Assembly (NCBI GenBank): GCA_904394215.1
Contig: CAJFNF010000046.1
Span: 1 to 37,969 of the forward strand
Origin: an uncultured Faecalibacterium sp.
GTDB taxonomy: Bacteria > Bacillota > Clostridia > Oscillospirales > Ruminococcaceae
Direction: 5' to 3'
DNA length: 37,969 nt
Shown here piece after piece: positions 205-36,565 of the stretch; the stretch's first letter is position 1; every line of letters begins with the position of its first letter. The notes beneath the pieces were generated by a model. It worked only from the letters and a program-made list of their open reading frames with translations, was not told the origin of the DNA and searched no databases. A program made the translations under genes and the position numbers.

Positions 205-325
205 AGACCCTCTTGCGCTTAGCCGATTTTTGCGGCGCACCACGGCGGGTGCTTGCAAAAATCGGAGCGCTGCGCCAGCGGCTGCTCCCTGTTTCATCCA
301 CTGGACGCGGTCGCCGCCGCTGCCC
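205..325 (-). repeat. R2 structured repeat, copy 1
   Basis: The helices are seen directly. GCGCT (215-219) pairs with AGCGC (266-270). CCGATTTTTGC (223-233) pairs with GCAAAAATCGG (255-265). CAGCGGC (276-282) pairs with GCCGCTG (316-322). The copy lies downstream of the penicillin-binding protein gene, in the same orientation relative to that gene as the copies after groEL and dnaC. No coding potential is seen. Confidence 0.75.
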
Positions 326-515
326 CGCGGCTGCGCCGCCGCCCCCATACGGGGGCTCTGGGCCTCCGACTGCTCCTTCTAGGTTTACGCTGCAGGGGCT
401 TTCCGACTGCGGCAATGCCCATAAAAAAGATGGAGCAGTTTGCCGCCGATCCCCCGGAGGGGGATGTCGCGCAGCGACAGGGGGACACCGCTAAAAGGGC
501 GGGTGGGAGGGCATA
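326..515. repeat. R1-family foldback repeat, variant copy
   Basis: It holds the R1 hairpin CCCCCATACGGGGG near 340, the central GACTGCTCCTTCT block and the right-end block (GGGGGATG, GCGCAGCGAC, GGGGGACACC) ending in GGGCGGGTGGG. It sits between R2 copy 1 and the stop codon of the penicillin-binding protein gene. No gene is seen. Confidence 0.55.
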
Positions 516-518
516 AAA

Positions 519-2120
519 TCATTCCTCCAGCAGCCACAGGGCCTCGCAGACCTGGCCGAAGATGGCCGCACTGGAGCAGGCCGGGTCGGTCTGGCCGTCC
601 TGGAGCACCACCACCGTGTATTTGGGGTCGTCGGCGGGGCAGAAGCCCGCAAACCAAAGGTTCATTTTTTCCTGGCCGTCGGCGGTGAACTGCCCGGTCT
701 GGGCGGTGCCGGTCTTGCCGGCGGCGCTGCCGTGAACCGGGGCGCCCTCGTGGCCGGTGCCCTCGGTCACCACCCCCGCCAGCAGCTCCCACAGCCGCCG
801 GGCGGTCTGTTCCGAAAACACCCGCCGGGAGGTTCCTTCGGGGGCGGCCTCCACCAGCTGGCCGGTGGATTCATCCACCGTGCCCAGCACGAAGGTGGGG
901 GTCCGGTAGACCCCGCCGTCCGCCACTGCGTTCATCATGGCCGCCACCTGGAGCGGGGTGGCCAGCAGCTGCCCCTGGCCAAAACTGAAGTTGGCCAGCT
1001 GGCCGGGAGAATCCAGGGCGCTCCGTTCCGGCAGCACCCCCGCCGCCCCCCGGAGGCTCCCCGCCACGCTGACCGACTGGCCAAAGCCAAGGCTTTGGGC
1101 CGCTTCCAGCACCGCATCGGGCCCCAGGGCCTGGCCCAGCCGGATGAAATAGCCGTTGCAGCTCTTTTCCAGGGCGGCGGCCAGGTCCACCGTGCCGTGG
1201 GCGGTGCCCGACGCGCACCGGAACACCTGCCCATCCACGATGGTATAGCCGGGACAGTCCACCGTCAGGTCATCCAGCCCCGCCTCCATGGCGGCCGCCG
1301 CCAGCACCGGCTTGGACACCGACCCCACCGCGTAGGCCGCCAATGTCCGGTCCAGCAGGGGGCTGCCGGGGTCGTCCAGGCTGGCCGAGACGTCTTCGGG
1401 GTCATAGCCCGGCAGGCTGACGCTGGCCCGCACCTGGGCGGTGGCGGTGTCCAGAACCAGGATACAGCCGGTGGTGATGGTCTCGGCGGCCACCGCCTCC
1501 ACCGCCCGCTGGACCGGCCGGGAGATGGTGAGCCGCACCCCTGCGCCGTCGGTGACGGCGGCCTCATACACCGGCTGGGTGTCCTCCACCAGCCGCCCCT
1601 GGCCGGTGACGGCACAGGTGATGGTATCCCTGGGGCTGGTGCCGGCCAGCAGGTCATCCAGGGCGCCTTCCAGGCCGGCCACCCCCTTCCCTTCCCCGTC
1701 CAGGTAGCCGATCAGGTGCTGGCACAGGGGCACGGTGCAAGAGCGCCGGGGCACCCCATAGCAGTACAGCCCCAGGCCCGACACGTCCCGGCTGACTTCC
1801 AGCAGGAAGGGGGCGGCGGCGTTGCGCCGCTGGTACAGAACCCCCTGGCCGGCGGCGTCCGCCGCGTCATACAGCCGGACGTAGCTGCTCTCCCCCGGCA
1901 GGCAGAGGGCATACCAGGCGGTTTCGATCCCCGTCAGGGGGAGGCCGTCGCAGTCATAGAAGCCGCCCCGCCGGGCGGGCAGGGTCAGGGTGACGGTGCT
2001 CTGGCCCTGGGCCCGGGCGGCGTAGCCGGTATTGCTGGCGGTGAGGTAGAGCCGGCACAGCACCACCGCGAAGGCCAGCACCAGCGCCCCATACAGGGCC
2101 GCGATGCGGCGTGGGGGCAT
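519..2120 (-). CDS. Penicillin-binding protein, class B-like transpeptidase
   Basis: A 533-residue membrane-anchored D,D-transpeptidase that would cross-link peptidoglycan outside the membrane. One N-terminal hydrophobic segment (about residues 8-27) is followed by a dimerisation-like region and the transpeptidase domain. All three active-site motifs are visible: SVSK at 267-270 (serine nucleophile), SCN at 320-322 and KTGT at 469-472. The ATG at 2120 is preferred because AAAGGAG lies 8 nt upstream; an in-frame GTG at 2129 would overlap that ribosome site. At 533 residues it is shorter than most PBP2 or FtsI proteins and resembles the small FtsI/SpoVD-like transpeptidases of Clostridia. It stands alone, without division genes beside it, so the split between elongation, division and sporulation roles cannot be settled. 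Family assignment is firm, exact paralogue is not. Confidence 0.93.
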   Translation of the reverse strand: MPPRRIAALYGALVLAFAVVLCRLYLTASNTGYAARAQGQSTVTLTLPARRGGFYDCDGLPLTGIETAWYALCLPGESSYVRLYDAADAAGQGVLYQRRNAAAPFLLEVSRDVSGLGLYCYGVPRRSCTVPLCQHLIGYLDGEGKGVAGLEGALDDLLAGTSPRDTITCAVTGQGRLVEDTQPVYEAAVTDGAGVRLTISRPVQRAVEAVAAETITTGCILVLDTATAQVRASVSLPGYDPEDVSASLDDPGSPLLDRTLAAYAVGSVSKPVLAAAAMEAGLDDLTVDCPGYTIVDGQVFRCASGTAHGTVDLAAALEKSCNGYFIRLGQALGPDAVLEAAQSLGFGQSVSVAGSLRGAAGVLPERSALDSPGQLANFSFGQGQLLATPLQVAAMMNAVADGGVYRTPTFVLGTVDESTGQLVEAAPEGTSRRVFSEQTARRLWELLAGVVTEGTGHEGAPVHGSAAGKTGTAQTGQFTADGQEKMNLWFAGFCPADDPKYTVVVLQDGQTDPACSSAAIFGQVCEALWLLEE

Positions 2121-2200
2121 GGGGGTCACTCCTTTCGGTTTTCTGTTCCGGGGGAGTATGGGTCAGACTGGGGTAGGTTATGCGGGGGTCTATTGGCAGA

Positions 2201-2295
2201 GGGCGCAGTTTGTGGCTTAGAGCCCCCGTATGGGGGCAGCGGCGCAGCCGCGGGGGAACCTCTGTGGGCGGTGGGTGGGTTTAGATCATAAATAA
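2201..2295. repeat. R1 repeat, right half
   Basis: It contains AGAGCCCC, a CCCCCGTATGGGGG hairpin and the right terminal block GGGCGGTGGGTGGGTTTAG followed by ATCATAAATAAA. It abuts R5 with about 10 bp between, a junction repeated at 24195 and 36560. Confidence 0.65.
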
Positions 2296-2630
2296 AAGTC
2301 CCGGCTTTTGCCTCTAGCGCTGTCCGGCCCGTCCGGCCCGTCGGACGCTGCGCTTGGCCCAGAGGGGGAGGGAGGGTGTTTCGAATCCCCCTCCCTACCC
2401 CCTCTGGACTCCCTACCCTCCCGCAACGACCAGAGGAAACCTCTGGACTCACATCCTAAAACGGCGGCAGATGCATTTTTCTTAACGGTCTTTGACCGCC
2501 GCTCCGATTGTAGAAAAGCGCCAGCTGTGCGCTGGCGCGTGACTTCTAACGTCTGGGCAGACTGCTCTATTGTCTTTCACTCTCACGGCGGTTGTGCTGC
2601 CAAAAACTTTGCCGCTCGGCCTGGGGAACA
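2296..2630 (+). repeat. R5 hairpin-rich repeat, copy a
   Basis: About 330 bp repeated at 16171-16474 and 24202-24600 and partly at 1-195. Visible hairpins are CCAGAGGGGG with CCCCCTCTGG (an extended 18-19 bp stem), CCAGAGG-AAA-CCTCTGG, and GCGCCAGC-TGTGC-GCTGGCGC near 2520. No ribosome site or plausible gene is present. It lies between an R1 right half and a full R1 copy. Confidence 0.75.
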
Positions 2631-2860
2631 TTTGAACCCACCCACCCGCCCACAGAGGTAACCCCCGGCCTGCGGCCGCGCCCCTTGACAGGGGCTCTGA
2701 ACTTTTCACTGCTTCCTCTTTGGTTGGCTGTGCCGCAGCTACAAGGCCCCCGCAGCATAAACCCAGGAGGAGCAGTTTTCGGCTCAGAGCCCCACCGGGG
2801 CGGGCCCGCAGGGCCGGGGGAACATTAAATGGGAGGGGGGCGGGTTTAGATCATAAATAA
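2631..2860. repeat. R1 foldback repeat, full copy
   Basis: Terminal inverted repeats (GAACCCACCCACCCGCCC at the left, GGGCGGGTTTAGATC at the right) enclose a left arm ending CCCCTTGACAGGGGCTCT and a right arm beginning AGAGCCCC. The two halves are largely reverse complements, so the unit can fold back on itself. It has no transposase. Confidence 0.7.
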
Positions 2861-2865
2861 AAAAC

Positions 2866-2910
2866 AATACAAAACAAAAAGCCCCTGCTCCCAAAAACAG
2901 GAGCAGGGAC
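2866..2910 (-). terminator. Terminator for the groESL operon
   Basis: On the minus strand CCCTGCTCCTG, loop TTTTT and GGGAGCAGGGG are followed by CTTTTTGTTTTG: a strong intrinsic terminator. It lies about 240 nt after the groEL stop, with R2 and R3/R4 elements between. Confidence 0.85.
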
Positions 2911-2943
2911 TTGGTTTTTTAGATTGGGCGAGACGGAGCCTTC

Positions 2944-3044
2944 ACGGGTACTCGGGCGCAGCCCAAGCGCCGACTAAGATGCAGGGGTTTGCCGCCCTCT
3001 AGCCCTCACGTAAGCGCGGCCAGAGTGAATGGTACCCAGTGAAA
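2944..3044 (-). repeat. R3/R4 3'-UTR element, copy a
   Basis: Read on the minus strand it opens with CACTGGGTACC and closes with CGAGTACCCGTG, so GGGTAC pairs with GTACCC and CAC with GTG. It lies between groEL and its terminator. The closest copy is at 25146-25246 after prfB. Confidence 0.7.
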
Positions 3045-3126
3045 CCTCTTGCGCTTAGCCGATTTTTGCGGCGCGGGACAGCGCCTGCTTGCATGCCGCA
3101 GGCAGCGCTCGGTTCAGCTGCCTTTG
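3045..3126 (-). repeat. R2 structured repeat, copy 2, internally deleted
   Basis: It keeps TTGCGCTTAGCC and CCGATTTTTGC, but the matching GCAAAAATCGG arm is gone: the sequence jumps from GCTTGCA to the far GCAGGCAGCGCTCGG block. The long helix therefore cannot form here. Confidence 0.65.
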
Positions 3127-4797
<1,671 letters not shown>

Positions 4798-5246: not shown

Positions 5247-5250
5247 GAGT

Positions 5251-6590: not shown

Positions 6591-6612
6591 AGAATCTTTC
6601 ACAAAGTTAAAT

Positions 6613-6663
6613 GTCATACTTTACAAAAAAAGATTGCCACACAGCCCACCGATTTGGTATAAT
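6613..6663 (+). promoter_or_regulatory. Promoter of lipoprotein 1 with shared upstream motif
   Basis: TTGCCA (6634-6639) and TATAAT (6658-6663), 18 nt apart, with an extended -10 (TGG before TATAAT). GTCATACTT at 6613-6621 recurs about 12 nt upstream of the -35 box in all three lipoprotein genes. Confidence 0.85.
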
Positions 6664-6681
6664 AAACCAAACGCAACCACC

Positions 6682-6696
6682 CGGGCCCACGGCCCG
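6682..6696 (+). promoter_or_regulatory. 5'-UTR hairpin before the ribosome site
   Basis: CGGGCC-CAC-GGCCCG is a perfect 6-bp stem with a 3-nt loop, ending 5 nt before GGAAGGAGG. The same hairpin, with loop CAC or CCC, precedes all three lipoprotein genes. Confidence 0.6.
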
Positions 6697-6715
6697 CACT
6701 GGAAGGAGGAACATC

Positions 6716-8623
6716 ATGCGAAGAAAAATTCTTGCCCTGCTGCTGGCAGCGGCCATGGCCATCAGTTTGCTGGCGGGCTGCGGCGGCGGCAAAGCGCTGT
6801 CCCAGGTGATTGTTGACCTGCTGGACAACCTGTACAGCAATGTTTCGGTGGAGGCGGACAGTGACCTCACCGCCGCCCTGAAACAGGCTGCGGCTGAGGG
6901 CGGCACCGAGGAGGAAATCCTCTCCCGGATGATCGAGATTCTCAACCACAAGGGCGGCAGCATCGCCTTTACCCGGCTGGGCAACGGCCAGCAGGGTGAT
7001 CACGCGGTGACCCTGTACTTCCAGACCGGCACCGACCCCGACGCCGCGGCCCGCAACGCCCTGGCCCAGTGGGCCGGCACCCTTGGCACTCTGCCCGACG
7101 ACGGCAGCTACCAGGCCGATGTCGCCATGATCGAGTCCGAAAACGGCTACTACATCGCGCTGGACGTGGAAGTGCTCAAGGCGGGCAAACCGGACAAGCC
7201 GGACAAGGATGATGATGACAACCAAGACGACGGCCTCATCCACGCCGACGGCATGGCCTATGATCCGGCAAACAAATCTGCCACCATTTCGGGCGAAAAC
7301 GGCCTGACCTCTTTGGTTGAAACCCTGCAAAAGGTTGCAGACGAATCCGACACTACGCTTGCTGAAGCCATCGGGGAAACCAATATTACCCTGACGTCGA
7401 GTACAACCCTGCCTGCGGACTGGCCCTATGAAGCAACATACGAAGCAACCTTTGACGGCGGGAACAACATCGTCAGCGGTGTAAAAGCCGCAGATGAGAC
7501 TGGTTACAACGCTATGTTTGCCCGGCTTAACGGCACAGTTAAAAATGTGCAGTTTGAGGATGTTGAGATCAGCGGCGGTGATTTTAATGGTGCGGTCGCA
7601 GGATACAACATCGACGGCACAGTCGAAAACTGCGCGGTTCTGTCCGGCACCATCTCTGGTGATAATTCTGTCGGCGGCCTGGTGGGCTACAACACAGGAA
7701 CCATCACCGGGTGCGAATCTGCGGCAATCGTCAACGGTTCGGCGGGGAATACCGGTGGAATAGCCGGCTACAATGCAGGGACTATTTCTGACAGCACCAA
7801 CACCGGCAACGTAGACAGTGCTGGCTGGTTCGTTGGCGGCATTGTTGGGTTGAATGCGGATGGCAGCTCAATCTCCGGGTGTAATGCTTCCGGTGACGTC
7901 ACTGCCGAACAGGAAGAAGTCGGCGGCATCGTGGGCCGTAATAACGGTACGATTCGCAATTCGTCCTTTACTGGCAATAAAGTCCAGGGCGCATACACTG
8001 TAGGAGGTATCGTTGGCTCCAATACTCTGGAAGATGGTATGGCCAACAGTGTTATCGTGGAGGCTTGCCATTCAACTGGCGTCGTTATTAGCAACGGGAT
8101 GGACGCTGGCGGTATCGCTGGAAAGAATATGTCTGCCAGCGTGATTGCGTGCTATTCAACAGCAGATGTTCAAGGCAGTGAATATAACATTGGCGGTGTG
8201 GTCGGGACGAATGGCCAGATCTATGGTTCAACTGTCCTTGGTGTTATTGATACTTGCTATGCAACTGGTAATATAACAGGTGGAACATTTGTTGGCGGTG
8301 TGGCAGGAAGAAATGGTCACTCCAATGATAACGAGGCCAGTGTGAACGCATGTTATGCCACCGGTTCTGTAAGTGGAACAACAACCGGCGGTGTGATAGG
8401 CTCTAACCAAACTTTAAATGTAGTTACTTATTGTTACTGGCAAAATAATGCTGCAAACGGCATTGGAAAAGATGGAGCATATGAAGGCTCGCCTTCCGAT
8501 AGAGGATCTACGAGAGTTGACGATCTTACTACCTGGGAAGCTGCCACCCATGTAATGAACCAGAATTCCAAATCCAGTATTAAGTTCGTGTATTCTGACG
8601 GCGCACCCACCTTGCCGATATAA
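6716..8623 (+). CDS. Secreted lipoprotein 1 with GLUG repeats
   Basis: A 635-residue predicted surface lipoprotein. The signal peptide MRRKILALLLAAAMAISLLA ends in a lipobox (LLAGC), so Cys22 would be lipidated. Residues of about 25-155 form a domain shared with the lipoproteins at 16819 and 27594. An acidic linker (KPDKPDKDDDD) follows, then about 12 GLUG-type beta-repeats of the form GGIVGYNxGTI between roughly residues 275 and 605. GLUG repeats occur in adhesins and other large surface proteins; no enzyme motif is seen. GGAAGGAGG before the ATG at 6716 fixes the start. Base composition changes within the gene: the last 500 bp are clearly richer in A and T than the N-terminal part, which suggests that the C-terminal repeat region has a different origin. 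Promoter, leader and terminator are shared with the two paralogues. The ligand or function is unknown. Confidence 0.9.
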   Translation: MRRKILALLLAAAMAISLLAGCGGGKALSQVIVDLLDNLYSNVSVEADSDLTAALKQAAAEGGTEEEILSRMIEILNHKGGSIAFTRLGNGQQGDHAVTLYFQTGTDPDAAARNALAQWAGTLGTLPDDGSYQADVAMIESENGYYIALDVEVLKAGKPDKPDKDDDDNQDDGLIHADGMAYDPANKSATISGENGLTSLVETLQKVADESDTTLAEAIGETNITLTSSTTLPADWPYEATYEATFDGGNNIVSGVKAADETGYNAMFARLNGTVKNVQFEDVEISGGDFNGAVAGYNIDGTVENCAVLSGTISGDNSVGGLVGYNTGTITGCESAAIVNGSAGNTGGIAGYNAGTISDSTNTGNVDSAGWFVGGIVGLNADGSSISGCNASGDVTAEQEEVGGIVGRNNGTIRNSSFTGNKVQGAYTVGGIVGSNTLEDGMANSVIVEACHSTGVVISNGMDAGGIAGKNMSASVIACYSTADVQGSEYNIGGVVGTNGQIYGSTVLGVIDTCYATGNITGGTFVGGVAGRNGHSNDNEASVNACYATGSVSGTTTGGVIGSNQTLNVVTYCYWQNNAANGIGKDGAYEGSPSDRGSTRVDDLTTWEAATHVMNQNSKSSIKFVYSDGAPTLPI

Positions 8624-11477: not shown

Positions 11478-11496
11478 CTATTTTGCCCGGCCGCTT

Positions 11497-11622
11497 GAGG
11501 CAGCGGCGGCGACCGCGTCCAGTGGACGAAGCAGGGAGGCGCCGCTGGCGCAGCGCTCCGGTTTTTGCAAGTGGGCACCGCCCCGCGCCGCAAAAACCGG
11601 CTAAGCGCAAGAGGAGGCTCAC
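11497..11622 (+). repeat. R2 structured repeat, copy 3
   Basis: CCGGTTTTTGC pairs with GCAAAAACCGG, flanked by GCGCT and AGCGC. The second helix is GGCAGCGGCGGC with GCCGCTGGCGC around GTCCAGTGGAC. Compared with copy 1, a T-A pair has become C-G in the long helix with both strands changed. It lies upstream of the Clp promoter, oriented away from that gene. Confidence 0.75.
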
Positions 11623-11811: not shown

Positions 11812-12112
11812 TATCTAAACCCGCCCGCCACCCATAGCGGTAACCCCCGGCCTGCGGCCGCGCCCCTTGACAGGGGCTCTAAACCACAGACTTTTCCCTC
11901 CGGACGAGGGAGAAGTTAAACATTTAGTCCCCCGGAGGGGGATGTCGCACAGCGACAGGGGGACACCGCTAAAGGGCGGGAGGGTGGGAGTATAAATCCT
12001 CCTGGCTGAGCGGCAAAGCTGCCGCCACCAGCTCCGCCGTGCGGCGTAAAGGCAGAGGGAGCAGCTAACGGTTTAGAGCCCCCTGACGAGGGGGCGCAGC
12101 CGCAGGCTGTAG
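11812..12112. repeat. R1-family repeats, one full left arm and further arms
   Basis: It contains ATCTAAACCCGCCCGCC, CCCCTTGACAGGGGCTCT, the GGGGGATG / GCGCAGCGAC-type right block, then a second partial right arm (GGTTTAGAGCCCCCT). No gene is seen. Confidence 0.5.
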
Positions 12113-12230
12113 GGGCAAACACAGCGACCGCGTCCAGTGGACGAAACAGGGAGCTGTGTTTGGCGCCGCGGTCTGAATATGCAAGCATCATCCCTGATGC
12201 GCCGCATATTCAGGGCACCGCAAGAGGACA
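12113..12230 (+). repeat. R2 structured repeat, copy 4, most diverged stem sequences
   Basis: All four helices are intact with other bases: CAAACACAGC (12116-12125) with GCTGTGTTTG (12153-12162); GCGGT (12168-12172) with ACCGC (12217-12221); CTGAATATGC (12173-12182) with GCATATTCAG (12204-12213); GCATCA (12185-12190) with TGATGC (12195-12200). The GTCCAGTGGAC loop block is kept. Confidence 0.8.
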
Positions 12231-12290: not shown

Positions 12291-12351
12291 TGACCTGCAC
12301 CCCATTTGTTAGACAGTATGGTATACTGGATAACAAGTGGGGTGTTTTATT

Positions 12352-12702
12352 ATGCCAAAAGGAATACCGAACAAACGCTACACGCCGGAATTTAAGCAAC
12401 TGGTAGTAGAGACAATGCGAAAGGAACACATAAGTGTTCGCGAAGCGATGCGAAGGTTTGAGATCAACAACCATGGCATCATTGAACGGTGGGAGCGAAT
12501 CTATCTTGAAGAAGGGCCGGAAGGATTGGCGATCGAACGGCGAGGGCGAAAAAATAGCAGCCGGTCTGCCGAGTTGTCTAAGACGGTTGAAGAAGACCTG
12601 ATCGCCGAGAACCAGCGGCTGCGCGCGGAGAACGAATACCTAAAAAATTTGCAAGCCTTGGTTTTGGAAGAAGAGCGACGCCGGCACAGAAAACGCAGGT
12701 GA
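12352..12702 (+). CDS. IS3-family transposase OrfA (helix-turn-helix)
   Basis: A 116-residue DNA-binding subunit of the transposase. The helix-turn-helix spans about residues 8-50 (YTPEFKQLVVETMRKEHISV and following). A leucine-zipper-like stretch (ENQRLRAENEYLKNLQALVL) lies near the C-terminus and ends in a basic tail. The start is the ATG at 12352, after a weak GGGGTG ribosome site. OrfB lies in the -1 frame and overlaps the stop. A slippery A AAA AAT at 12642-12648 could allow a -1 frameshift to an OrfAB fusion: the -1 frame is open from there into OrfB. A GTGA start-stop overlap at 12699-12702 could instead give coupled translation. Confidence 0.93.
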   Translation: MPKGIPNKRYTPEFKQLVVETMRKEHISVREAMRRFEINNHGIIERWERIYLEEGPEGLAIERRGRKNSSRSAELSKTVEEDLIAENQRLRAENEYLKNLQALVLEEERRRHRKRR

Positions 12703-13541
12703 TCCAAACACTGAGGCTGAAATATCCGTTATTGCTTCTGCTTGAAATCGCTCAGCTGCCCAGAGCAACCTTTTACTACTATTTGAAACGGATGCAGCGG
12801 GCAGACAAATATGCAAGGGTAAAAGAAGAAATCGCCGCTATCTACCACGAAAATAAAGGAAGATACGGATACCGGCGTATCACTATGGTACTTCACAGCC
12901 GAGGATTTCTCCTGAACCACAAGACTGTCCAGCGGATGATGAAAGAACTGGGCTTGGTTTGCCGTGTCAGAGTCAAGAAATATCGCTCTTACAAAGGAGA
13001 ATTGGGCAAGATTGCGCCCAATCTGCTGAACAGAAACTTCCATGCGGAAAAACCAAATCAAAAGTGGGTCACCGACGTGACAGAGTTCAGCTTGTTTGGC
13101 CAGAAACTCTATCTTTCTCCAATCCTGGATCTGCACAATGGGTATTTGGTGAGCTATGCTATCTCTGACCGACCGGTTTTAAGCATGGTAACGACTATGC
13201 TCACCAAAGCCTTTGAAACCATACCGGATGCAACTGGACTGGTTCTCCACTCTGACCAAGGCTGGCAATACCAGCACAAGCAGTACCAATGTATGCTGCG
13301 TATGAAAGGTATTCGGCAGAGTATGAGCCGCAAAGGGAACTGTCTGGACAATGCGGTGGCAGAAAACTTCTTCGGCCTACTCAAGAGTGAACTGCTTTAT
13401 CTGCAAGAATTTGAGTCTATGGAACACTTCAAGCAGGAACTTGTGGATTATCTTGAGTATTACAACAACCGCAGAATTAAGACAAAACTAAAGGGCTTGC
13501 CGCCTGCTATTCACAGACAACAAGCCCTTTCGGCTGCTTAA
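12699..13541 (+). CDS. IS3-family transposase OrfB (DDE integrase)
   Basis: A 280-residue catalytic part of the transposase. An N-terminal HTH_21-like region (RYGYRRITMVLHSRGFLLN) is followed by the rve integrase core. The three acidic catalytic residues are visible in VTDVTEF, LHSDQGWQY and DNAVAENFFGLLKSE. The C-terminal YYNNRRIKTKLKGLPP is the standard family ending. It appears intact and so possibly active. Production depends on a -1 frameshift from OrfA or on initiation at the overlapping GTG. Confidence 0.95.
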   Translation: MIQTLRLKYPLLLLLEIAQLPRATFYYYLKRMQRADKYARVKEEIAAIYHENKGRYGYRRITMVLHSRGFLLNHKTVQRMMKELGLVCRVRVKKYRSYKGELGKIAPNLLNRNFHAEKPNQKWVTDVTEFSLFGQKLYLSPILDLHNGYLVSYAISDRPVLSMVTTMLTKAFETIPDATGLVLHSDQGWQYQHKQYQCMLRMKGIRQSMSRKGNCLDNAVAENFFGLLKSELLYLQEFESMEHFKQELVDYLEYYNNRRIKTKLKGLPPAIHRQQALSAA

Positions 13542-13613: not shown

Positions 13614-13718
13614 TTTGGGCGCACAGGGCCGCAGGCCGGGAGCCTCATAAAGAGAACAGGCCTTTGCCGCCGGCAGGACGAAACGTAAGCCGGAGCAGTT
13701 GCCCGGTACTGTGTAAAA
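13614..13718 (-). repeat. R3/R4 3'-UTR element, copy d
   Basis: On the minus strand ACACAGTACCGGGCAACTG opens and GGCCCTGTG closes the unit, so CACAG pairs with CTGTG where copies a and e have GGGTAC with GTACCC. It sits between R2 copy 5 and the split terminator of the dnaC operon. Confidence 0.7.
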
Positions 13719-13719
13719 C

Positions 13720-13835
13720 CTCTTGCGCTGAGCCGATTTTTGCGGCGCACCACGGCGGGTGCTTGCAAAAACCGGAGCGCTGCGCCAGCGGCGGCTCCCT
13801 GTTTCGTCCACTGGACGCGGTCGCCGCCGCTGCCT
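13720..13835 (-). repeat. R2 structured repeat, copy 5
   Basis: Closely resembles copy 1. CCGATTTTTGC faces GCAAAAACCGG, leaving one A-C mismatch; the outer arm reads GCGCTGAGCC. The second helix CAGCGGC with GCCGCTG is intact. It lies in the dnaC 3' region. Confidence 0.7.
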
Positions 13836-13839
13836 TTGG

Positions 13840-13863
13840 TTACTTTTCTTCCAGAAAAGTAAC
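13840..13863 (-). terminator. Stem-loop at the dnaC stop codon
   Basis: TTACTTTTCT, TCC and AGAAAAGTAA form a stem nearly identical to that at the groEL stop codon. Both are followed in the same order by R2, R3/R4 and a G/C terminator. Confidence 0.5.
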
Positions 13864-14840
13864 TATTCCTTCGCTTTTTGCAGGCGGATGTCGTCGCCCA
13901 GGAAGCGGTAGGGCACGAAGGCCGAGATGCGGCTGGCCACCTTTTCGGTGTACAGCTTTTCCAGGAGGGCGCCGTCGGTGATGTTGGTGGTGAGGATGGT
14001 GGGCCGGCGGCGGCCCAGCCGGTCGTTCAGCAGGCTGTACAGGGTGCTGATCACAAAGCTGGAATTGAACTCGGTGCCCAGGTCGTCCAGGATCAGCAGG
14101 TCCGCCCCGCAGACCGTCTCCATCAGGGCGTCCTTCTCCCCCGCCGGGTCGGACCCGAAATGCAATGTCTCCACCCGGCCGAAAAAGTCGGGGCTGGAAA
14201 TGTAAATCACATCATACCCCTTGTCCAGGGCCGCCCCCGCCACCGCCAGGGCGGCGTGGGTCTTGCCCAGGCCGGCGTTGCCGGTAAACATCAGGTTCTC
14301 GCTGTCCAGGTCAAACTCTTCGGCGTAGTCCCGCAGGTCGGCCAGCAGGTCCGCCATGTACCGGCGCACCGTCTGGCCCGTCTGGCCCAGGGGGGTGTTG
14401 GGATAATAATCCAGCTTCATGGTATCAAAGCTGGTGACCGACAGGCTGGACATGGCCTCGATCTCTTCCCGGCGGAGCCGCTGCATCTCGCGGTGGACGC
14501 ACTGGCAGGTCTTGCCCTCCGCCACCCCGGTGTCCTGGCAGACCGGGCAGGTGAATTTGGGCTCCAGGGCCAGGGGCGACCGCCCGCTGGCCGCCAGCAG
14601 GGCATCCCGCTTGTCTTTGGCCGCCGCCAGGGCTGCAGCCGCCTGGGTCCGGTCGGCGCCGCGGGCCCCCGCCAGGGCGCACCGCACCCCGCAGGCCCGC
14701 ACCTCGTCCTCGGCCGCCTTCAGGGCCGGGATGGCTGCCTCCGCCTCGGCCCGGGCATCCTCGGCCCGGGCTTTGGCCATCTGCCGCCGGGCCGAAACCG
14801 TCCGGATGGCGGCCTGGTATAGCTCGTTTCGTGTCCGCAC
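13863..14840 (-). CDS. DnaC/DnaI-like helicase loader ATPase
   Basis: A 325-residue AAA+ protein expected to load the replicative helicase onto DNA in the cytoplasm. The N-terminal third is a charged, Ala-rich helical region. A zinc-binding cluster follows (C98, C101, C112, C114 in CPVC and CQC), then the AAA+ core: Walker A GNAGLGKTH at 187-195, Walker B LLILDDLG at 248-255, sensor-1 TTN at 284-286 and the candidate arginine finger R304. The order zinc cluster then AAA+ fits DnaI of Bacillus. It is last in a three-gene operon, 6 nt after the DnaD-like gene, which supports a joint role in helicase loading. The symbol is left open because DnaC and DnaI cannot be separated by eye. Confidence 0.92.
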   Translation of the reverse strand: MRTRNELYQAAIRTVSARRQMAKARAEDARAEAEAAIPALKAAEDEVRACGVRCALAGARGADRTQAAAALAAAKDKRDALLAASGRSPLALEPKFTCPVCQDTGVAEGKTCQCVHREMQRLRREEIEAMSSLSVTSFDTMKLDYYPNTPLGQTGQTVRRYMADLLADLRDYAEEFDLDSENLMFTGNAGLGKTHAALAVAGAALDKGYDVIYISSPDFFGRVETLHFGSDPAGEKDALMETVCGADLLILDDLGTEFNSSFVISTLYSLLNDRLGRRRPTILTTNITDGALLEKLYTEKVASRISAFVPYRFLGDDIRLQKAKE

Positions 14841-16474: not shown

Positions 16475-16686
16475 TTTGAACCCACCCACCCGCCCACAGA
16501 GGTAACCCCCGGCCTGCGGCCGCGCCCCTTGACAGGGGCTCTGGGCCTCTGACTGCTTCTTCCGGGTAAAAGCTGCGGCATACCTAAAAAAGAGGGAGAA
16601 GCTACAGCGCTGATCCCCCCGAAGGGGGGATGCCGCGCAGCGGCAGGGGGGACTCCGATAAAAGGGTGGTGGGTGGGTATAGATCA
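16475..16686. repeat. R1 foldback repeat, full copy upstream of lipoprotein 2
   Basis: Left end TTTGAACCCACCCACCC, right end GGGTGGTGGGTGGGTATAG then ATC. The inner CCCCTTGACAGGGGCTCT and CCCCCCGAAGGGGGGATG hairpins are kept. The lipoprotein promoter motif begins about 30 bp beyond. Confidence 0.7.
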
Positions 16687-16715
16687 AATTATAAAAAGAA
16701 TAGGCAAAAGGAAAG

Positions 16716-16766
16716 GTCATACTTCACCAAAAAAGATTGCCACGCAGCCCACCGATTTGGTATAAT
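16716..16766 (+). promoter_or_regulatory. Promoter of lipoprotein 2 with shared upstream motif
   Basis: GTCATACTT (16716-16724), TTGCCA (16737-16742) and TATAAT (16761-16766), with 18-nt spacing and TGG before TATAAT, as in the other two genes. Confidence 0.85.
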
Positions 16767-16784
16767 GAACCAAACGGAACCACC

Positions 16785-16799
16785 CGGGCCCACGGCCCG
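16785..16799 (+). promoter_or_regulatory. 5'-UTR hairpin before the ribosome site
   Basis: CGGGCC-CAC-GGCCCG, same place and sequence as at 6682. Confidence 0.6.
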
Positions 16800-16818
16800 C
16801 ACTGGAAGGAGGAACATC

Positions 16819-18784: not shown

Positions 18785-19110
18785 TTTTTATTTAGATCTA
18801 TACCCTCCGGGTTGCGGTGCCCTGTTTTTGCTGCGCGGGACGGGGCCCGCTTGCAAAAAGCAGACCGCTGCCCCTGCTCCGCCTCGCCTGTTTCTGCCGC
18901 AGGCAGCGGCTCAGCTACGCAGCCAGCTTCGCCTCGCTGTTTCTGCCGCAGGCAGCGCTCGGTTCAGCTGCCCCCCTTCGGGGGGAGCTGGCCTGTGGTT
19001 TCTCCCTCACCCAGAAGGAGCAGCTCCCGGTTTAGAGCCCCGGCAGGGGCGCGGCCGCAGGCCGGGGGGTTCATCTAAGGGCGGCGGGCGGGTTTAGATC
19101 AAAAAATAAA
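18785..19110. repeat. R1 repeat arms enclosing R2 copy 6
   Basis: The left edge is ATTTAGATCTATACCC. The right part is AGAAGGAGCAGCTCCCGG, GAGCCCC and GGGCGGCGGGCGGGTTTAG. An R2 copy (18812-18982) replaces the left arm. No gene is seen. Confidence 0.6.
18812..18982 (-). repeat. R2 structured repeat, copy 6, with duplicated end
   Basis: The outer arms are GCGGT and ACCGC, and the long helix CTGTTTTTGC faces GCAAAAAGCAG. The block TTTCTGCCGCAGGCAGCG-CTC occurs twice (near 18890 and 18945), so the second helix region is duplicated. Confidence 0.65.
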
Positions 19111-24045: not shown

Positions 24046-24165
24046 GGTGGGCTGCGCAGCCGAGCGCGTCCTGCGGACGATGCAGCGAGGCGTGCTTGGC
24101 GCCGCGCTCCAATTTTCACAAGGGCGCTGTGCGTCCCGCAGGGAAAATTGGCTAAGCGCAAGAGG
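24046..24165 (+). repeat. R2 structured repeat, copy 7
   Basis: GCGCT (24104-24108) pairs with AGCGC (24155-24159), and CCAATTTTC (24109-24117) with GAAAATTGG (24143-24151). The small inner hairpin reads GTCC-TGC-GGAC in place of GTCC-ACT-GGAC. Confidence 0.75.
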
Positions 24166-24201
24166 TTTTAAAAGGGCGGCGGGTGGGTTTAGATAAATTA
24201 T

Positions 24202-24600: not shown

Positions 24601-24960
24601 GGGATTTAGATTCCCGCCCTCCCGCCCGCAGAGGTAACCCCCAGCCTGCGGCTGCGCCCCTTGACAGGGGCTCTAAACCAAAAGCTGCTCCTTCTGGGTG
24701 CAGGCTGCTTGCAGCCGCAAAGCGCCCACCTCATCACAGCGGCACAGCCTCCGGATGAAGGAGCAGCTGCACGTTCAGAGCCCCGCCGGGGCGGGCCCGC
24801 AGGGCCGGGGCCACATCTATGGGCGGCGGGCTGCGCAGCCGAAGCGCTGCCTGCGGCAGATGCAGCGAGGCGGAGCAGGGGCAGCGGTCTGCTTTTTGCA
24901 AGGGCGCTCCTGCGGCCCGCTGCAAAAACAGGGCACCGCAACCCGGTGGGTTTAGATAAC
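24601..24960. repeat. R1 repeat enclosing R2 copy 8
   Basis: The left arm (CCCCTTGACAGGGGCTCT, AGCTGCTCCTTCTGGGTG) and right arm (GAAGGAGCAGCT, CAGAGCCCCGCCGGGGC) are both present. R2 copy 8 lies between the right arm and the terminal GGTGGGTTTAGAT. With 23936-24600 this makes about 1.3 kb without any gene. Confidence 0.6.
24830..24943 (+). repeat. R2 structured repeat, copy 8
   Basis: The outer arms are GCGGT and ACCGC. The long helix CTGCTTTTTGC pairs with GCAAAAACAG with one unpaired base. The second region carries CTGCC-TGC-GGCAG. Confidence 0.65.
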
Positions 24961-27243: not shown

Positions 27244-27249
27244 CCGGGG

Positions 27250-27365
27250 GCAGCTGAGCCGAGCGCTGCCTGCGGCAGAAACAGCGAGGCGAAGCTGGCG
27301 CAGCGCTCCGGTTTTTGCAAGCGGGCGCCGTCCCGCGCCGCAAAAATCGGCTAAGCGCAAGAGGT
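27250..27365 (+). repeat. R2 structured repeat, copy 9
   Basis: GCGCT with AGCGC; CCGGTTTTTGC with GCAAAAATCGG (one G-T pair); second region CAGCT with AGCTG enclosing CTGCC-TGC-GGCAG. It joins an R1 end (GGGCGGCGGGCGGGTTTA) at 27371. Confidence 0.72.
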
Positions 27366-27440
27366 TTTATAGGGCGGCGGGCGGGTTTATAAAGTTATAG
27401 CCTTAGCCTATAGCGCTGGCTGGGCCTGGCCGTGGGCTGT
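27366..27440. repeat. R1 right end plus R5 fragment
   Basis: GGGCGGCGGGCGGGTTTATA is followed after about 10 bp by TAGCCTATAGCGCTGGCTGG, the truncated start of R5. The rest up to 27489 holds nothing recognisable. Confidence 0.45.
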
Positions 27441-27593: not shown

Positions 27594-29642
27594 ATGCGAA
27601 GAAAACTTCTTGCCCTGCTGCTGGCAGCGGCTATGGCCATCAGCCTGCTGGCCGCCTGCGGCAGCAGGCAGCAATCGGCTGCCCGGGTCCTGCTGAACCT
27701 GCTGGAGGGCAAATACCAAAACGTCTCGGTGGAGATGGACCCCGACCTGGAGGCCGACCTGCGCCAGGTGCTGAGCGAAAATGAAAATGACGACGAGGCC
27801 GCCATCCGGGCGGCCCTGGAAAAGGTGCTGGGTTCCACCATCACCTTCACCCGCCTGGGGAAGGGCCAGCAGGGCGACACCGCCTTTGACCTGGTGTTCT
27901 ATGCCGGCTCCGACCCCGACAAGGCGGCCCAGGCAGCTTACACCCAGTGGAACCCCGTCTTCTCGCGCCTGCCCGCCGACGGCAAGTACGCCGCCGGCCT
28001 GGCCCTGGTCCAGACCGAGAACGGCTGCTGGCTGCTGGTGAAGGCTACCGTGGAGAAGGCCGGGACGGCGGACAAGGACAAGCCTGTCACCCTCAAGAGC
28101 CTTTCGGTGACCGGGCTCACCACGACCGGCTACGAAGTTGGAGATAAATTCGACCCTGCCGTCATAACTGTCAGCGCCGTTTATTCTGATGGACATTCTG
28201 AACCGCTTCTGTCAACAGATTACACCATTACGATCAACGGCAGCGCCCCCGGTACAGACTACGTCTTCAAAAAAGCAGGTTCCTATACCCTTAAAATAAC
28301 TTATAAGGGCCAGGAGCTTACCCAAACAATAGAAGTAAGCAACAATTCCAACGGATACTATCAGAGCGCCGACGGCAGCTATGTTGTCACAGGCTCCGAC
28401 GGCCTGCAAAATCTGTTTAGTGAGCCTAGCATCGATGCTACAAAGGCTGACATCACCCTGGAACCCTTGGAGAGTGGCCAAAGCTACACCGTCACCAAGC
28501 AGCTGACCGATACTTTTAGCGGCAAGCTGACCAGCGACGGCGGCCAGGCCAAAATCAAGCTTTCGGGCGGCGCGAGCCTGTTCGGGACGATTGCCAGCGG
28601 CGCCGAGGTGTCCTATCTGGATATTACGGTGACAGAGGGCATCAGCGTCAGCAAAACAGACGGCAGCGACAGCGACGCCGGCGTTGTAGCGGGCCAAAAT
28701 TATGGCAAGATCACCGGCTGCGATGTGACCATCAACAATGGCAAATCCATCACAGCTGACCCCAGCTCCGGCTCTGGCGCTGCCAACGCCGGCGGCATCG
28801 TGGGCCAAAATAAAAGCGGCGGTAAAATCAGCGATTGCACCGTCACCGGCGGCACCATCCAATCTGGTAATCTCTCTGTCTCCAGCGACCACGTCTTCGC
28901 CGGCGGCATTGCAGGTAGCAATGATGGCACCATCGAAAGTAACTGTAAAGTGGAAGATACCAGCGTCTCCGCCACCACCAATAGCGCCGACTACCGCGCC
29001 TGCGCCGGCGGCCTGGTGGGGTACAACACGAGTACGGTGGACGGCACCTACAGCGGCAGCGGCAAGATTGCCGCCACAGGCCAGAACATCACCGCCGCCG
29101 GCGGCCTGGTGGGGTTCAACACGAGTACGGTGACCGGCACCTATAACGGCAGCGGCACCGTCCAAGCTTATGGCAGCTACACCTCCGCCGGCGGCCTGGT
29201 GGGGTACAACATGAGTACGGTGGACGGCACCTACAGCGGCAGCGGCACCGTCCAAGCCACAATTGATCCAAATGGATCGAGCGAAGCATGGGCCGGCGGC
29301 CTGGTGGGGTACAACGCGGATACGGTGAGCGGCACCTACAGCGGCAGCGGCACCGTCCAAGCCGAGAACACCGCCTTCGGTTCCGCCTACGCCGGCGGCC
29401 TGGTGGGGTACAATATCAGAGATATCGACAGCGTGACCGCCAACTGGATTCCCAAAAACGGAACCCAAAACTTGCAAAAAACCATCCGGGCCAAGGCCGG
29501 GGATGATACCGCCGCTGTGCCTTACATCGATAGCAGCAACGTTCAACAAGGAATTCAAAAAAATGGCCGAGCCTACGCCGGCACCAAGTGCGGCAGTGAA
29601 AACAGCGGTGACCCGTCGTCACATATCACCACTGGCGGCTAA
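27594..29642 (+). CDS. Secreted lipoprotein 3 with Ig-like domain and tandem repeats
   Basis: A 682-residue predicted lipoprotein. The signal peptide MRRKLLALLLAAAMAISLLA precedes Cys22 (LLAAC lipobox). The shared N-terminal domain spans about residues 25-160. Unlike the paralogues it then has a bacterial Ig-like domain (about 165-250; SVTGLTTTGYEVGDKFDPAV ... GSYTLKITYKGQELTQTIEV). A beta-helix region with GLUG-type repeats follows. Between 29004 and 29400 five near-identical units start with AGGLVGYN and continue TVDGTYSGSGTVQA, spaced 93, 90, 105 and 99 bp. The end (AGTKCGSENSGDPSSH) resembles that of lipoprotein 2. GAAAGGAGG precedes the ATG. A surface role is inferred. Confidence 0.9.
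   Translation: MRRKLLALLLAAAMAISLLAACGSRQQSAARVLLNLLEGKYQNVSVEMDPDLEADLRQVLSENENDDEAAIRAALEKVLGSTITFTRLGKGQQGDTAFDLVFYAGSDPDKAAQAAYTQWNPVFSRLPADGKYAAGLALVQTENGCWLLVKATVEKAGTADKDKPVTLKSLSVTGLTTTGYEVGDKFDPAVITVSAVYSDGHSEPLLSTDYTITINGSAPGTDYVFKKAGSYTLKITYKGQELTQTIEVSNNSNGYYQSADGSYVVTGSDGLQNLFSEPSIDATKADITLEPLESGQSYTVTKQLTDTFSGKLTSDGGQAKIKLSGGASLFGTIASGAEVSYLDITVTEGISVSKTDGSDSDAGVVAGQNYGKITGCDVTINNGKSITADPSSGSGAANAGGIVGQNKSGGKISDCTVTGGTIQSGNLSVSSDHVFAGGIAGSNDGTIESNCKVEDTSVSATTNSADYRACAGGLVGYNTSTVDGTYSGSGKIAATGQNITAAGGLVGFNTSTVTGTYNGSGTVQAYGSYTSAGGLVGYNMSTVDGTYSGSGTVQATIDPNGSSEAWAGGLVGYNADTVSGTYSGSGTVQAENTAFGSAYAGGLVGYNIRDIDSVTANWIPKNGTQNLQKTIRAKAGDDTAAVPYIDSSNVQQGIQKNGRAYAGTKCGSENSGDPSSHITTGG
29004..29408 (+). 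repeat. Tandem GLUG units inside lipoprotein 3
   Basis: GCCGGCGGCCTGGTGGGG starts at 29004, 29097, 29187, 29292 and 29391. All spacings are multiples of three, so unit gain or loss keeps the frame. Confidence 0.85.
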
Positions 29643-32155: not shown

Positions 32156-32188
32156 AGATACACCCTTTCATGGTTTTTGGATGGTTTC

Positions 32189-32214: not shown

Positions 32215-32340
32215 CGGCCCGATTGATGCAAAATCCAAGGCTATGATAACACAGACGGCGGTGCAGTTCAAGAATTTGAATTTTTTTACACACATCAGTG
32301 GGCGGGTCTTCTTTTCTTTTGGTATTTTGATCTATACTTT

Positions 32341-32462
32341 CCCTCTTGCGCTTAGCCGATTTTTGCGGCGCGGGACGGAGCCCGCTTGCAAAAACCGGAG
32401 CGCTGCGCCAAACACAACTCCCTGCTTCGTCCACTGGACGCGGTCGTTGTGTTTGCCCCGCG
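32341..32462 (-). repeat. R2 structured repeat, copy 10
   Basis: GCGCT (32348-32352) with AGCGC (32399-32403). CCGATTTTTGC (32356-32366) with GCAAAAACCGG (32388-32398), one mismatch. The second helix CAAACACAAC (32409-32418) with GTTGTGTTTG (32446-32455) is a perfect 10 bp, replacing CAGCGGC with GCCGCTG of copy 1. Confidence 0.78.
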
Positions 32463-32502
32463 GCTGCGCCGCCGCCCCAAAGGCCAGCTCCCCCCGAAGG
32501 GG

Positions 32503-32618
32503 GCAGCTGAGCCGAGCGCTGCCTGCGGCAGATACAGCGAGGCGAAGCTGGCGCAGCGCTCCAATTTTCACAAGGGCGCACCGCCGCCCGCAGGGAAAAT
32601 TGGCTAAGCGCAAGAGGA
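32503..32618 (+). repeat. R2 structured repeat, copy 11
   Basis: CCAATTTTC with GAAAATTGG, flanked by GCGCT and AGCGC; CTGCC-TGC-GGCAG in the second region. It faces copy 10 as an inverted pair about 40 bp away. R1 end sequence (GGGCGGTGGGCGGGTTTAG) follows at 32651. Confidence 0.75.
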
Positions 32619-32707
32619 CCGCCGCCGCAGGCGGCAGGGGCACCGCTATGGGCGGTGGGCGGGTTTAGATCATAAATAAAGAAAAAACACACCCAAACAA
32701 AAGCACC

Positions 32708-32736
32708 TTGCAATTCAGGGCATAATATGATAAAAT
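32708..32736 (+). promoter_or_regulatory. SRP RNA promoter
   Basis: TTGCAA and TAAAAT with 17-nt spacing and TGA before TAAAAT (extended -10). Confidence 0.78.
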
Positions 32737-32741
32737 ACCTG

Positions 32742-32965: not shown

Positions 32966-32988
32966 ATGTGTGTGAGGGAGGTGTCAAG

Positions 32989-35019: not shown

Positions 35020-35046
35020 AAATAAGATTATTGGAGGAAATCCGCG

Positions 35047-35391
35047 ATGAAAGCAAGAATGCCCGGCGGCTATGGCCGCCCCGATATGAACAGCCTGATG
35101 CGTCAGGCCCAGAAGATGCAGAGCGAGATGCAGGCCAAGCAGGCCCAGCTGGAGCAGACCGAGTACACCGCCAGCGCCCCCGGCGAGATGGTGACGGTGA
35201 AGATGAACGGCAAGCACGAGGTGCTGGCCGTGACCATCAAGCCCGAGGCCGTGGACCCCGACGACGTGGAGATGCTGCAGGACCTGGTGGCGGCGGCGGT
35301 GAATGCCGCCGTCCAGCAGGTGGACGAGGCTGCCGCCGCCGAGATGGGCAAGCTGACCGGCGGGCTGAACATCCCCGGCCTGGGCCTGTAA
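35047..35391 (+). CDS. ebfC: YbaB/EbfC-family nucleoid-associated protein
   Basis: A 114-residue small protein that forms dimers and binds DNA. A central helix ([20 protein letters not shown]) and the core [20 protein letters not shown] are typical. The C-terminus [12 protein letters not shown] matches the family ending. GGAGG lies 8-10 nt before the ATG. The place between dnaX and recR is conserved across bacteria, suggesting links with replication and recombination repair. Confidence 0.95.
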
Positions 35392-35404
35392 GGGAGGCCG
35401 CGGC

Positions 35405-36004
35405 ATGAGCAATACCGCCGCGCCGCTGGAAGTGCTGATCGACGAGCTGAAGCGGCTGCCCGGCCTGGGGGACAAGAGCGCCACCCGGCTGGCCTACCAG
35501 CTGATGAACCTGTCCAGCGACCAGACCGAGCGCCTGGTCAGCGCCATCCGCGGGGTGCACACCAAGCTGCACCGGTGCCGGCTGTGCCAGAACTACACCG
35601 ACGGGGAGGTCTGCCCCATCTGCGCCGATCCCAAGCGGGACCATTCCACCATCTGCGTGGTGGAGACGGCCCGGGACGTCCAGGCCATCGAGCGCACCCG
35701 GGAATACCGCGGGATGTACCATGTGCTGTACGGGCTGATCAGCCCGGTGAAGGGGATCGGCCCCGAGAACTTAACCATCCGGGAGCTGGTAAACCGGCTG
35801 GCCGACACCTCGGTGAAGGAGGTCATCATGGGCCTGCCCCCCAGCGTGGAGGGGGATGCCACCTCGATTTTCCTGGCCCGGACCCTGAAGCCCCTGGGGG
35901 TGCGCACCACCCGGCTGGCCTCCGGCGTGCCGGTGGGCTCCAAGCTGGAGCAGGCCGACCGCCAGACCATCTTCCGGGCCCTGGAGGGCCGGCGGGACTT
36001 GTGA
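35405..36004 (+). CDS. recR: Recombination mediator protein RecR
   Basis: A 199-residue protein that works with RecO and RecF to load RecA at gaps. A helix-hairpin-helix (LKRLPGLGDKSATRLAYQL, about residues 14-32) is followed by the four-cysteine zinc finger (CRLC and CPIC, near 58-74). A Toprim domain begins at ICVVETARDVQAIE, and the C-terminal Walker B-like end (TRLASGVPVGSKLEQADRQT) is complete. It starts 13 nt after ebfC with GGGAGG as ribosome site. An R6 module directly follows the stop codon. Confidence 0.98.
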   Translation: MSNTAAPLEVLIDELKRLPGLGDKSATRLAYQLMNLSSDQTERLVSAIRGVHTKLHRCRLCQNYTDGEVCPICADPKRDHSTICVVETARDVQAIERTREYRGMYHVLYGLISPVKGIGPENLTIRELVNRLADTSVKEVIMGLPPSVEGDATSIFLARTLKPLGVRTTRLASGVPVGSKLEQADRQTIFRALEGRRDL

Positions 36005-36005
36005 C

Positions 36006-36108
36006 CTGGCCAGGCAGAGCCTGCCAGGCAAAGCCTGGACTATTTCGCGGATTTACGCTGCTGCTGGCGTTTACCTGCTAAGCTCGCGGCTGCTGCGTAT
36101 AGCCGAAT
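36006..36108 (+). repeat. R6 module directly after recR
   Basis: AGCCTGGACTATTTCGCGGA and CTCGCGGCTGCTGCGTATAG mark the unit. It starts within a few nt of the recR stop codon, as the tandem pair does after the DUF6291 gene. A short duplication of CCAGGCA-AGCCTG lies at its start. Confidence 0.7.
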
Positions 36109-36194
36109 CCGACCAGGCGGCGGAGGCTTCCCTCCCACCCGCTCCCTTTCCTGGCACCACTGCGCCCCACAGCGGATGGGTATGTTTTTGATTT

Positions 36195-36565
36195 TTATCT
36201 AAACCCACCCTCCACCCTTTTATCGGTGTCCCCCCTGCCGCTACGCGGCAGTCCTCTTGCGCTTAGCCGGTTTTTGCGGCGCGCCGCGGCGGGCGCTTGC
36301 AAAAATCGGAGCGCTGCGCCAGCTTCGCCACGCTGTTTCTGCCGCAGGCAGCGCTCGGCTCAGCTGCCCCCCTTCGGGGGGAATGTACCAAAAAACGCTC
36401 CTTCTGGTTGCAGGCTGCGCAGCAGCCGCAAATGCCACTGCCTGACAGTTCCGGCAAACCCAAAAACAGAAGGAGCCGTTAGAGGCCCAGAGCCCCCACA
36501 GGGGGCGGGCCCGCAGGGCCGGGGGAACCGCTATGGGCGGCGGGAGGGTTTAGATCAAAAATAAA
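36195..36565. repeat. R1 repeat enclosing R2 copy 12
   Basis: The left end is ATCTAAACCCACCCTCCACC, the right end GGGCGGCGGGAGGGTTTAG followed by ATC. R2 copy 12 (36250-36368) is inserted in the left arm. The interval 36005-37000 holds no gene; 36109-36194 shows nothing recognisable. Confidence 0.62.
36250..36368 (-). repeat. R2 structured repeat, copy 12
   Basis: CCGGTTTTTGC faces GCAAAAATCGG (one G-T pair), with GCGCT and AGCGC outside and CAGCT with AGCTG in the second region. Confidence 0.72.

Follow-up and report, generated by a model that had tools for sequence, protein, structure and literature searches.

In integrons, the enzyme reads the folded bottom strand of an attC site, in which unpaired bases are conserved and stems are variable. 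This folded bottom-strand recognition is also remarked on in passages of PMC8266576, which describe TnpA-REP as acting on single strands folded into hairpins whose stem irregularities are conserved. Here, we characterize R2, a non-coding repeat of ~120 bp that consists of two unlike hairpins and that recurs across a 37,969-nt stretch of DNA from an uncultured Faecalibacterium sp. (contig CAJFNF010000046.1 of assembly GCA_904394215.1; hereafter the window). We favour, with somewhat better than even confidence, the explanation that R2 is a non-autonomous mobile element, likely spreading as a folded single bottom DNA strand that would be read by its shape.

The top strand of R2 starts at its 5′ end with CCTCTTGC and finishes at its 3′ end with GCC, and the bottom strand reads GGC...GCAAGAGG. 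Hairpin 1 opens with an outer arm, P1a, which reads GCGCT:AGCGC or GCGGT:ACCGC; next come a 3-nt bulge and the long stem P1b, and a short unpaired step leads to the inner hairpin, P1c. Hairpin 2 contains a stem of ~10 pairs (P2a), a TC/TC internal loop, a stem of two pairs (P2b), a TGTTT bulge that faces a single C, and a terminal stem of five pairs with a 3-nt loop (P2c). The stems have many different sequences with Watson-Crick pairing kept, and the loops and bulges are largely fixed; the unpaired pattern of TC/TC internal loops, TGTTT bulge and 3-nt bulge persists across clades.

We built a covariance model on 49 copies, nine of them from the window. At E ≤ 3e-7 it has 12 matches in the window: 11 cover the full length, with scores of 77.7 to 143.8 bits, and one is rearranged (39.3 bits). 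An earlier reading of the window (the original prediction) had proposed a dispersed structured element in 12 copies, and both this count and all of its named helices were recovered, with positions accurate to a few bases (the helix placed at 215, for example, begins at 223). Seven further window matches have E from 0.0004 to 0.66 and represent fragments or chance similarity. Several copies lie within another repeat family, R1, which has G-rich ends and the boundaries GATCTAAACCCACCC...GGGTGGGTTTAGATC and which occurs at 36194-36566, 182-520, 2618-2860 and elsewhere in the window; R1 has hairpins of its own and hosts R2 at several fixed positions. The features of the window are as follows.

206..327, plus strand: R2, full length, within an R1 host repeat whose empty counterpart is known (136.3 bits)
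3042..3165, plus strand: rearranged R2, with the 5′ half of hairpin 1 joined to the 3′ half of hairpin 2 (39.3 bits)
11496..11617, minus strand: R2, full length (133.8 bits)
12111..12230, minus strand: R2 with outer arm GCGGT:ACCGC and stem CTGAATATGC:GCATATTCAG (114.0 bits)
13716..13837, plus strand: R2, the reference row of the alignment (143.8 bits)
13725..13780, plus strand: hairpin 1 of the reference copy (P1a, 3-nt bulge, P1b, P1c; model positions 10-65)
13786..13832, plus strand: hairpin 2 of the reference copy (P2a, TC/TC loop, P2b, TGTTT bulge, P2c with 3-nt loop; model positions 71-117)
18805..18927, plus strand: R2 variant B (GGGTTGCGGT...), then an additional hairpin 2 at 18922-18974 (77.7 bits)
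24047..24168, minus strand: R2, full length (101.0 bits)
24826..24948, minus strand: R2 variant B, within one end of an R1 host repeat (82.9 bits)
27246..27367, minus strand: R2, full length (134.2 bits)
32339..32460, plus strand: R2 with hairpin 2 stem CAAACACAAC:GTTGTGTTTG (139.5 bits)
32499..32620, minus strand: R2, the inverted neighbour of the 32339..32460 copy (131.0 bits)
36250..36371, plus strand: R2 within an R1 host repeat, with the same junction as the copy in genome G169 that has an orthologous empty site (133.8 bits)
36005..37000, no strand: recR-smpB spacer holding R1, R2 and fragments, ~100-195 bp long in 24 other genomes (spacer comparison)

We evaluated covariation in three sets of copies: 152 distinct copies, 93 of them less than 95% alike and one coming from the viral contig L287 (set 1); 96 matches, 80 of them distinct, in ten genomes belonging to a second Faecalibacterium clade, with L341 left out (set 2); and 53 matches from 14 other genera, 50 of them distinct (set 3). 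The model served as the guide for aligning sets 2 and 3, whose alignments therefore lean towards it. Near-identical copies (95% or 97% rule) were removed ahead of the pair counts, and copies at locus ends were left out. Among the 93 copies of set 1, structure pairs make up 16 of the 19 most strongly coupled column pairs, out of 7,021. The proportion of cells that pair is 90.5% in set 2, compared to 28.3-57.6% with slid partners, and 90.6% in set 3, compared to 36.3-43.8%; 27/38 and 34/38 pairs, respectively, vary on both sides. Under a tree-conditioned null written after R-scape's idea (significance at E ≤ 0.05), 11/38 structure pairs are significant in set 1, together with two non-structure pairs that are both adjacent to true pairs, 4/38 in set 2 and 13/37 in set 3, with no other pairs significant in the latter two. 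The covariation of R2 thus exceeds the phylogenetic background, far past chance, and the predicted joint change of both strands holds in all three sets. Covariation alone cannot separate RNA folding from DNA folding: strong intergenic covariation is usually taken to indicate a structured RNA, but DNA that folds can produce it as well.

Matched stem changes could also arise without selection, if one arm of a hairpin were copied onto its partner by replication slippage (quasi-palindrome correction) and the hairpins were shuffled as repeats recombined. The near-perfect Watson-Crick stems and the few single-sided intermediates are consistent with this explanation, as is the presence of the repeats in recombining arrays and the near independence of the two hairpins, whose mean normalised mutual information is 0.057 across hairpins, compared to ~0.156 within them and 0.747 for base pairs. 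Each of the two main P1b types combines with all four main P2a types, although independence does not hold in the P1b by P2a table once the 'other' class is included (Cramer's V of 0.32). Copying of arm onto arm would erase non-complementary loops, and the TC/TC loop, the TGTTT bulge and the 3-nt bulge instead persist across clades and genera, which argues against slippage. We consider it improbable as the source of the pattern.

R2 occupies sites that are found empty elsewhere. After removal of copies with R2-array-like flanks, an empty match was found for 138 of the 388 copies tested (duplicates between loci included), representing 46 distinct host contexts. Over these contexts, the mismatch frequency at the right junction, on the top strand, is 0.24, 0.04 and 0.04 at positions +1 to +3, showing that this junction is precise. 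At the left junction, it is 0.70, 0.70, 0.52 and 0.35 at positions -1 to -4, and then 0.07-0.17. No multi-base target duplication was seen over the 46 empty and filled contexts, which leaves room for a duplication of 1-2 bp (C or CC). One host site in G059, GGTCCCCCTCC/CTTTGACAAGG, occurs both filled and empty. In G169, R2 lies in a 116-bp gap, and the orthologous R1 of the source genome is empty with a gap of 1 bp, between flanks that are 98.5% and 94.9% identical.

The spacer between recR and smpB provides a second comparison. It measures 103-193 bp and is free of R2 in 24 genomes that have both genes, compared to ~1 kb with R2 in G000 and G169, where the arrangements differ between these two close genomes. 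R2 is also near smpB in G164, on a contig that ends short of recR, and one more genome has no recR match. The mobility of R2 is therefore well supported by its filled and empty sites, the orthologous gap and the species-specific filling of the recR-smpB spacer, in agreement with the original suggestion of a hairpin-based mobile element. Copies also accumulate in arrays, with 13 head-to-tail neighbours and six nests in which a variant sits between hairpin 1 and hairpin 2. With up to 94 matches per genome, R2 rewrites the spacers of Faecalibacterium.

We considered whether R2 sits in the loop of host hairpins and rejected it, as the complementarity of its flanks is no higher than that of mismatched flanks; 5% of 42 copies and 7% of 94 copies pass the 5% point of the null. 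Separately, one host repeat, with GGTAGACATTCCTA...GTTCGAGTCC, resembles the D arm and T arm of a tRNA (L328, L329, L331 and L356). tRNA genes were rejected as R2 hosts, with ARAGORN finding no tRNA in the six loci given.

The pairing of the stems distinguishes R2 from the RNAs of the same genomes. On the top strand, G-U accounts for 20/3,508 cells in set 1, 13/1,979 in set 2 and 38/1,585 in set 3, where 20 of the 38 sit at one pair. Top-strand A-C cells, which are G-U on the bottom strand, number 74/3,508, 29/1,979 and 34/1,585, respectively. On either strand, the G-U share is 0.6-2.4%, compared to 13.4% in the transfer-messenger RNA (tmRNA) of the genus (146/1,092 G-U and 7/1,092 A-C cells, from 12 non-redundant sequences under an RNAalifold structure, which favours G-U) and 7.6% in tRNA (44/576 G-U and 4/576 A-C cells, from the acceptor and T stems of 48 tRNAs, kept when 8/12 pairs were Watson-Crick). 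Because G-U is scarce relative to both controls, R2 behaves unlike these RNAs.

The mismatches also have a polarity. In set 1, a sign test of G-U against A-C points to the bottom strand (21/27 unequal pairs, p = 0.006). Among tandem non-standard doublets, TC/TC on the top strand makes up 19/55 in set 1 and 55/70 in set 2, and GA/GA on the top strand is absent from each of the three sets, giving totals of 79 and 0. GA/GA is a stable sheared pair in both DNA and RNA. As TC/TC on the top strand is GA/GA on the bottom strand, the tandem mismatches point to the bottom strand more clearly than the sign test does; replication slippage, by comparison, predicts no strand preference. We infer that the folded bottom DNA strand is the active form, which is the least certain step of our explanation. 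More generally, the ratio of G-U to A-C and the polarity of tandem GA would help to tell RNA folding from DNA folding.

The same evidence bears on whether R2 is instead a mobile structured RNA, whose bottom-strand transcript folds and is selected in its RNA form or copied back to DNA, with copies beside permease genes (below) being a settled 3′ untranslated region (UTR) form. Purine-rich loops such as GA/GA and AAACA are typical of folded RNA, and the bottom-strand loops of R2 are of this kind; insertion with one precise and one ragged end also fits, as do the permease stop-codon copies, where the bottom strand gives TAA (11 Faecalibacterium loci and one of another genus). However, bottom-strand G-U is only 2.1%, 1.5% and 2.1% in the three sets, well below the tmRNA and tRNA values, the ratio of G-U to A-C is ~1:1 to 4:1 rather than the 11:1 to 21:1 of the controls, the orientation to genes is unbiased, and no Rfam family matches. 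We regard a mobile RNA as unlikely, with perhaps a modest chance of being correct.

The folded DNA strand that we favour suggests the following mechanism. A putative recombinase, encoded elsewhere, would recognise the folded bottom strand by its shape, with the fixed bottom-strand loops (tandem GA, the AAACA bulge and the 3-nt bulge) acting as probable protein contacts and the stems serving as duplex. G-T and A-C mismatches would be rare because this duplex is DNA. Insertion would join one end precisely, namely the right end of the top strand, which is the 5′ end GGC of the bottom strand. The other end would exchange ~3-4 host bases, as if a single strand were patched in.

We next consider placement relative to genes. 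R2 is nearly always located in spacers: with a gene caller seeded with four named genes, 6/153 copies overlap a called gene. Duplicates were removed only inside each of three sets, and G169 is present a second time, in the named set. For the 92 copies placed between genes, 32 are in convergent spacers, 27 run in the same direction as the genes, 25 run against them and 8 are in divergent spacers. In the second clade, 87 placed copies divide into 25 convergent, 23 with genes, 33 against and 6 divergent; when nine permease-stop copies are taken out, 23 run with and 24 against the genes. Within same-direction spacers, the orientation of R2 to genes is therefore random. This bears on R2 as a cis-acting regulator or terminator that works as RNA and is retained at the 3′ ends of genes. 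The rarity of copies in divergent spacers in both clades and the permease-linked copies would be expected of such an element, but the balanced orientations are not, and the copy number varies from 0 to 94 between species; we judge this explanation to be highly improbable. The structured RNA in 3′ UTRs that had been proposed accordingly fails as a general rule, given the random orientation and the scarcity of G-U, and it may apply to the permease group.

In that group, R2 starts at a GAVKG-stop in eight Faecalibacterium loci and at L420 of another genus (10/149 rows, two of which are one locus):

GAVKG-stop loci: L323, L314, L315, L317, L318, L320, L327, L338, L420

A GGVKG-stop precedes R2 at L312, L313 and L324 (L312 and L324 were read from flanks), and the permease family PF00528 matches at L313 and L420, the two loci tested. 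The bottom strand of these copies starts with GGCTAA and supplies the TAA stop, and this start costs hairpin 2 its second pair (A-A in 6/54). The permease-linked copies are possibly a recurrent target, or possibly a settled 3′ UTR element that has been kept.

Several observations weigh against R2 as a mobile folded DNA strand. The permease group shows R2 fixed at the stop codon of an ABC permease at 11 loci of nine Faecalibacterium genomes and at one locus of another genus, and 11/93 copies of the second clade overlap a called gene. The majority of the empty counterparts come from further copies of the host repeat in question rather than from orthologous loci; part of the pattern can therefore be due to gene conversion between host repeats with and without R2, and a few of the 46 empty contexts are weak or lie beside R2 arrays. 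The strand sign test is not significant in set 2 (11/19) or set 3 (10/19), with a pooled p of 0.025, and TC/TC is only 5/23 of the doublets in set 3. Finally, searches for Y1 transposases and integron integrases identified no mobilising enzyme.

Faecalibacterium is among the commonest bacteria of the human gut. The covariance model found R2 in 29/31 genomes of the genus, with none in G167 and G081, and with 81 matches in the source genome, 94 in G169, 64 in G164, 57 in G157, 47 in G151 and 36 in G154. In a family sample, 15/119 genomes have R2: besides the source genome, these are 14 that belong to other genera, among them G059 with 29 matches. BLAST recovered R2 in 24/31 genomes of the genus and 5/148 of the family, four of them weakly; in one test set, the covariance model found it in 11/11 genomes, including G150 and G162, where BLAST found none. 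Together with the fixed unpaired pattern and the near-independent hairpins, this spread to other genera goes beyond the original prediction, whose observation is confirmed and whose interpretation is partly supported.

The suggested check for a known RNA family gave no Rfam 15 match at gathering score, with two sub-threshold chance matches only. A literature search found no paper on these repeats, its scope stopping short of the supplementary motif tables of PMC8040213, which may list R2; the main text of that paper does not name Faecalibacterium. In a screen of phage contigs, a 15-base pattern matched 51 viral stretches, among which a hidden Markov model (HMM) confirmed one, L287; a second pattern matched seven and a third none. 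The covariance model confirmed R2 on five IMG/VR contigs (L287, L301, L403, L404 and L407) among the nine stretches given, and the remaining 49 stretches of the 15-base screen were tested by HMM alone. As these viral-class contigs may contain host DNA, they show nothing on phage carriage, and a phage origin was rejected.

Other elements were observed in the window. A ACTTTTCTTCCAGAAAAGT hairpin, probably a terminator, stands just past the right end of R2 and beside gene ends (3127-3150, 13840-13865 and many loci). An IS3-type transposase pair (HTH_28; rve, rve_2) lies at 12337-13541, between two R2 copies. Three GLUG-repeat proteins (PF07581) are encoded at 6611-8623, 16630-18444 and 27594-29642, and the 5′ regions of their genes share DNA repeats (families D5 and D9).

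R2 could be an ordinary hairpin repeat, of the REP or palindrome-associated kind, moved by an IS200/IS605-type enzyme (Y1, TnpA-REP). TnpA-REP works on folded irregular hairpins, according to passages of PMC8266576, and Y1 genes occur in 11/31 genomes of the genus. However, Y1 (PF01797) has no match in the source genome, of which 7% is missing, or in the R2-rich genomes G169, G157, G151 and G154, and only a fragment with a stop in G164; control genomes did match. The tetranucleotides GTAG or GGAG occur within 14 nt of an end in 18/301 copies, and CGTC in none of the 301. We therefore consider a Y1-moved repeat very improbable. The integron integrase model TIGR02249 has no match above its cut-off (265) in the 31 genomes. 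A broken integron-integrase-like gene was observed at G174:C1:2474714-2475522, in pieces of 87.5 and 79.6 bits, one of them with a TAG. The attC boxes (consensus GTTRRRY...RYYYAAC) and terminal inverted repeats (first 8 nt against the reverse complement of the last 8, with at most one mismatch) are each absent from all 301 copies. With these hallmarks failing, membership of R2 among Y1/RAYT, integron, REP or miniature inverted-repeat transposable (MITE) elements was rejected.

It is conceivable, and we put it forward tentatively as the less probable outcome, that R2 founds a class of mobile DNA defined by one folded strand with two hairpins, recognition by shape only, fixed purine loops on the bottom strand, freely exchangeable stems, no target duplication and an enzyme unlike the Y1, integron and DDE machines. 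Its stems, exchanged with the fold kept, would offer a natural catalogue of the substrates that a shape-reading recombinase accepts.

Compared to known systems, R2 resembles the REP, BIME and REPIN repeats of TnpA-REP (RAYT), which, in passages of PMC8266576, are short intergenic hairpins of high copy number whose stem irregularities are conserved; unlike them, it has two unlike hairpins, lacks the tags in 283/301 copies and is richest in genomes without Y1. The pneumococcal BOX element (boxA-boxB-boxC) is, in passages of PMC3049150, similarly modular, structured and intergenic, with a variable number of modules and an unclear mobiliser, but R2 differs in structure and lineage, and each of its modules is an entire hairpin, with nesting of one module inside another. 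MITEs such as RUP and Nezha share with R2 a non-coding, dispersed and parasitic presence in spacers, whereas R2 has neither terminal inverted repeats nor a multi-base target duplication. Integron attC sites have no counterpart in R2 for their boxes or, above cut-off, for their integrase, but they are like R2 as proposed in their folded bottom strand, conserved unpaired bases and variable stems.

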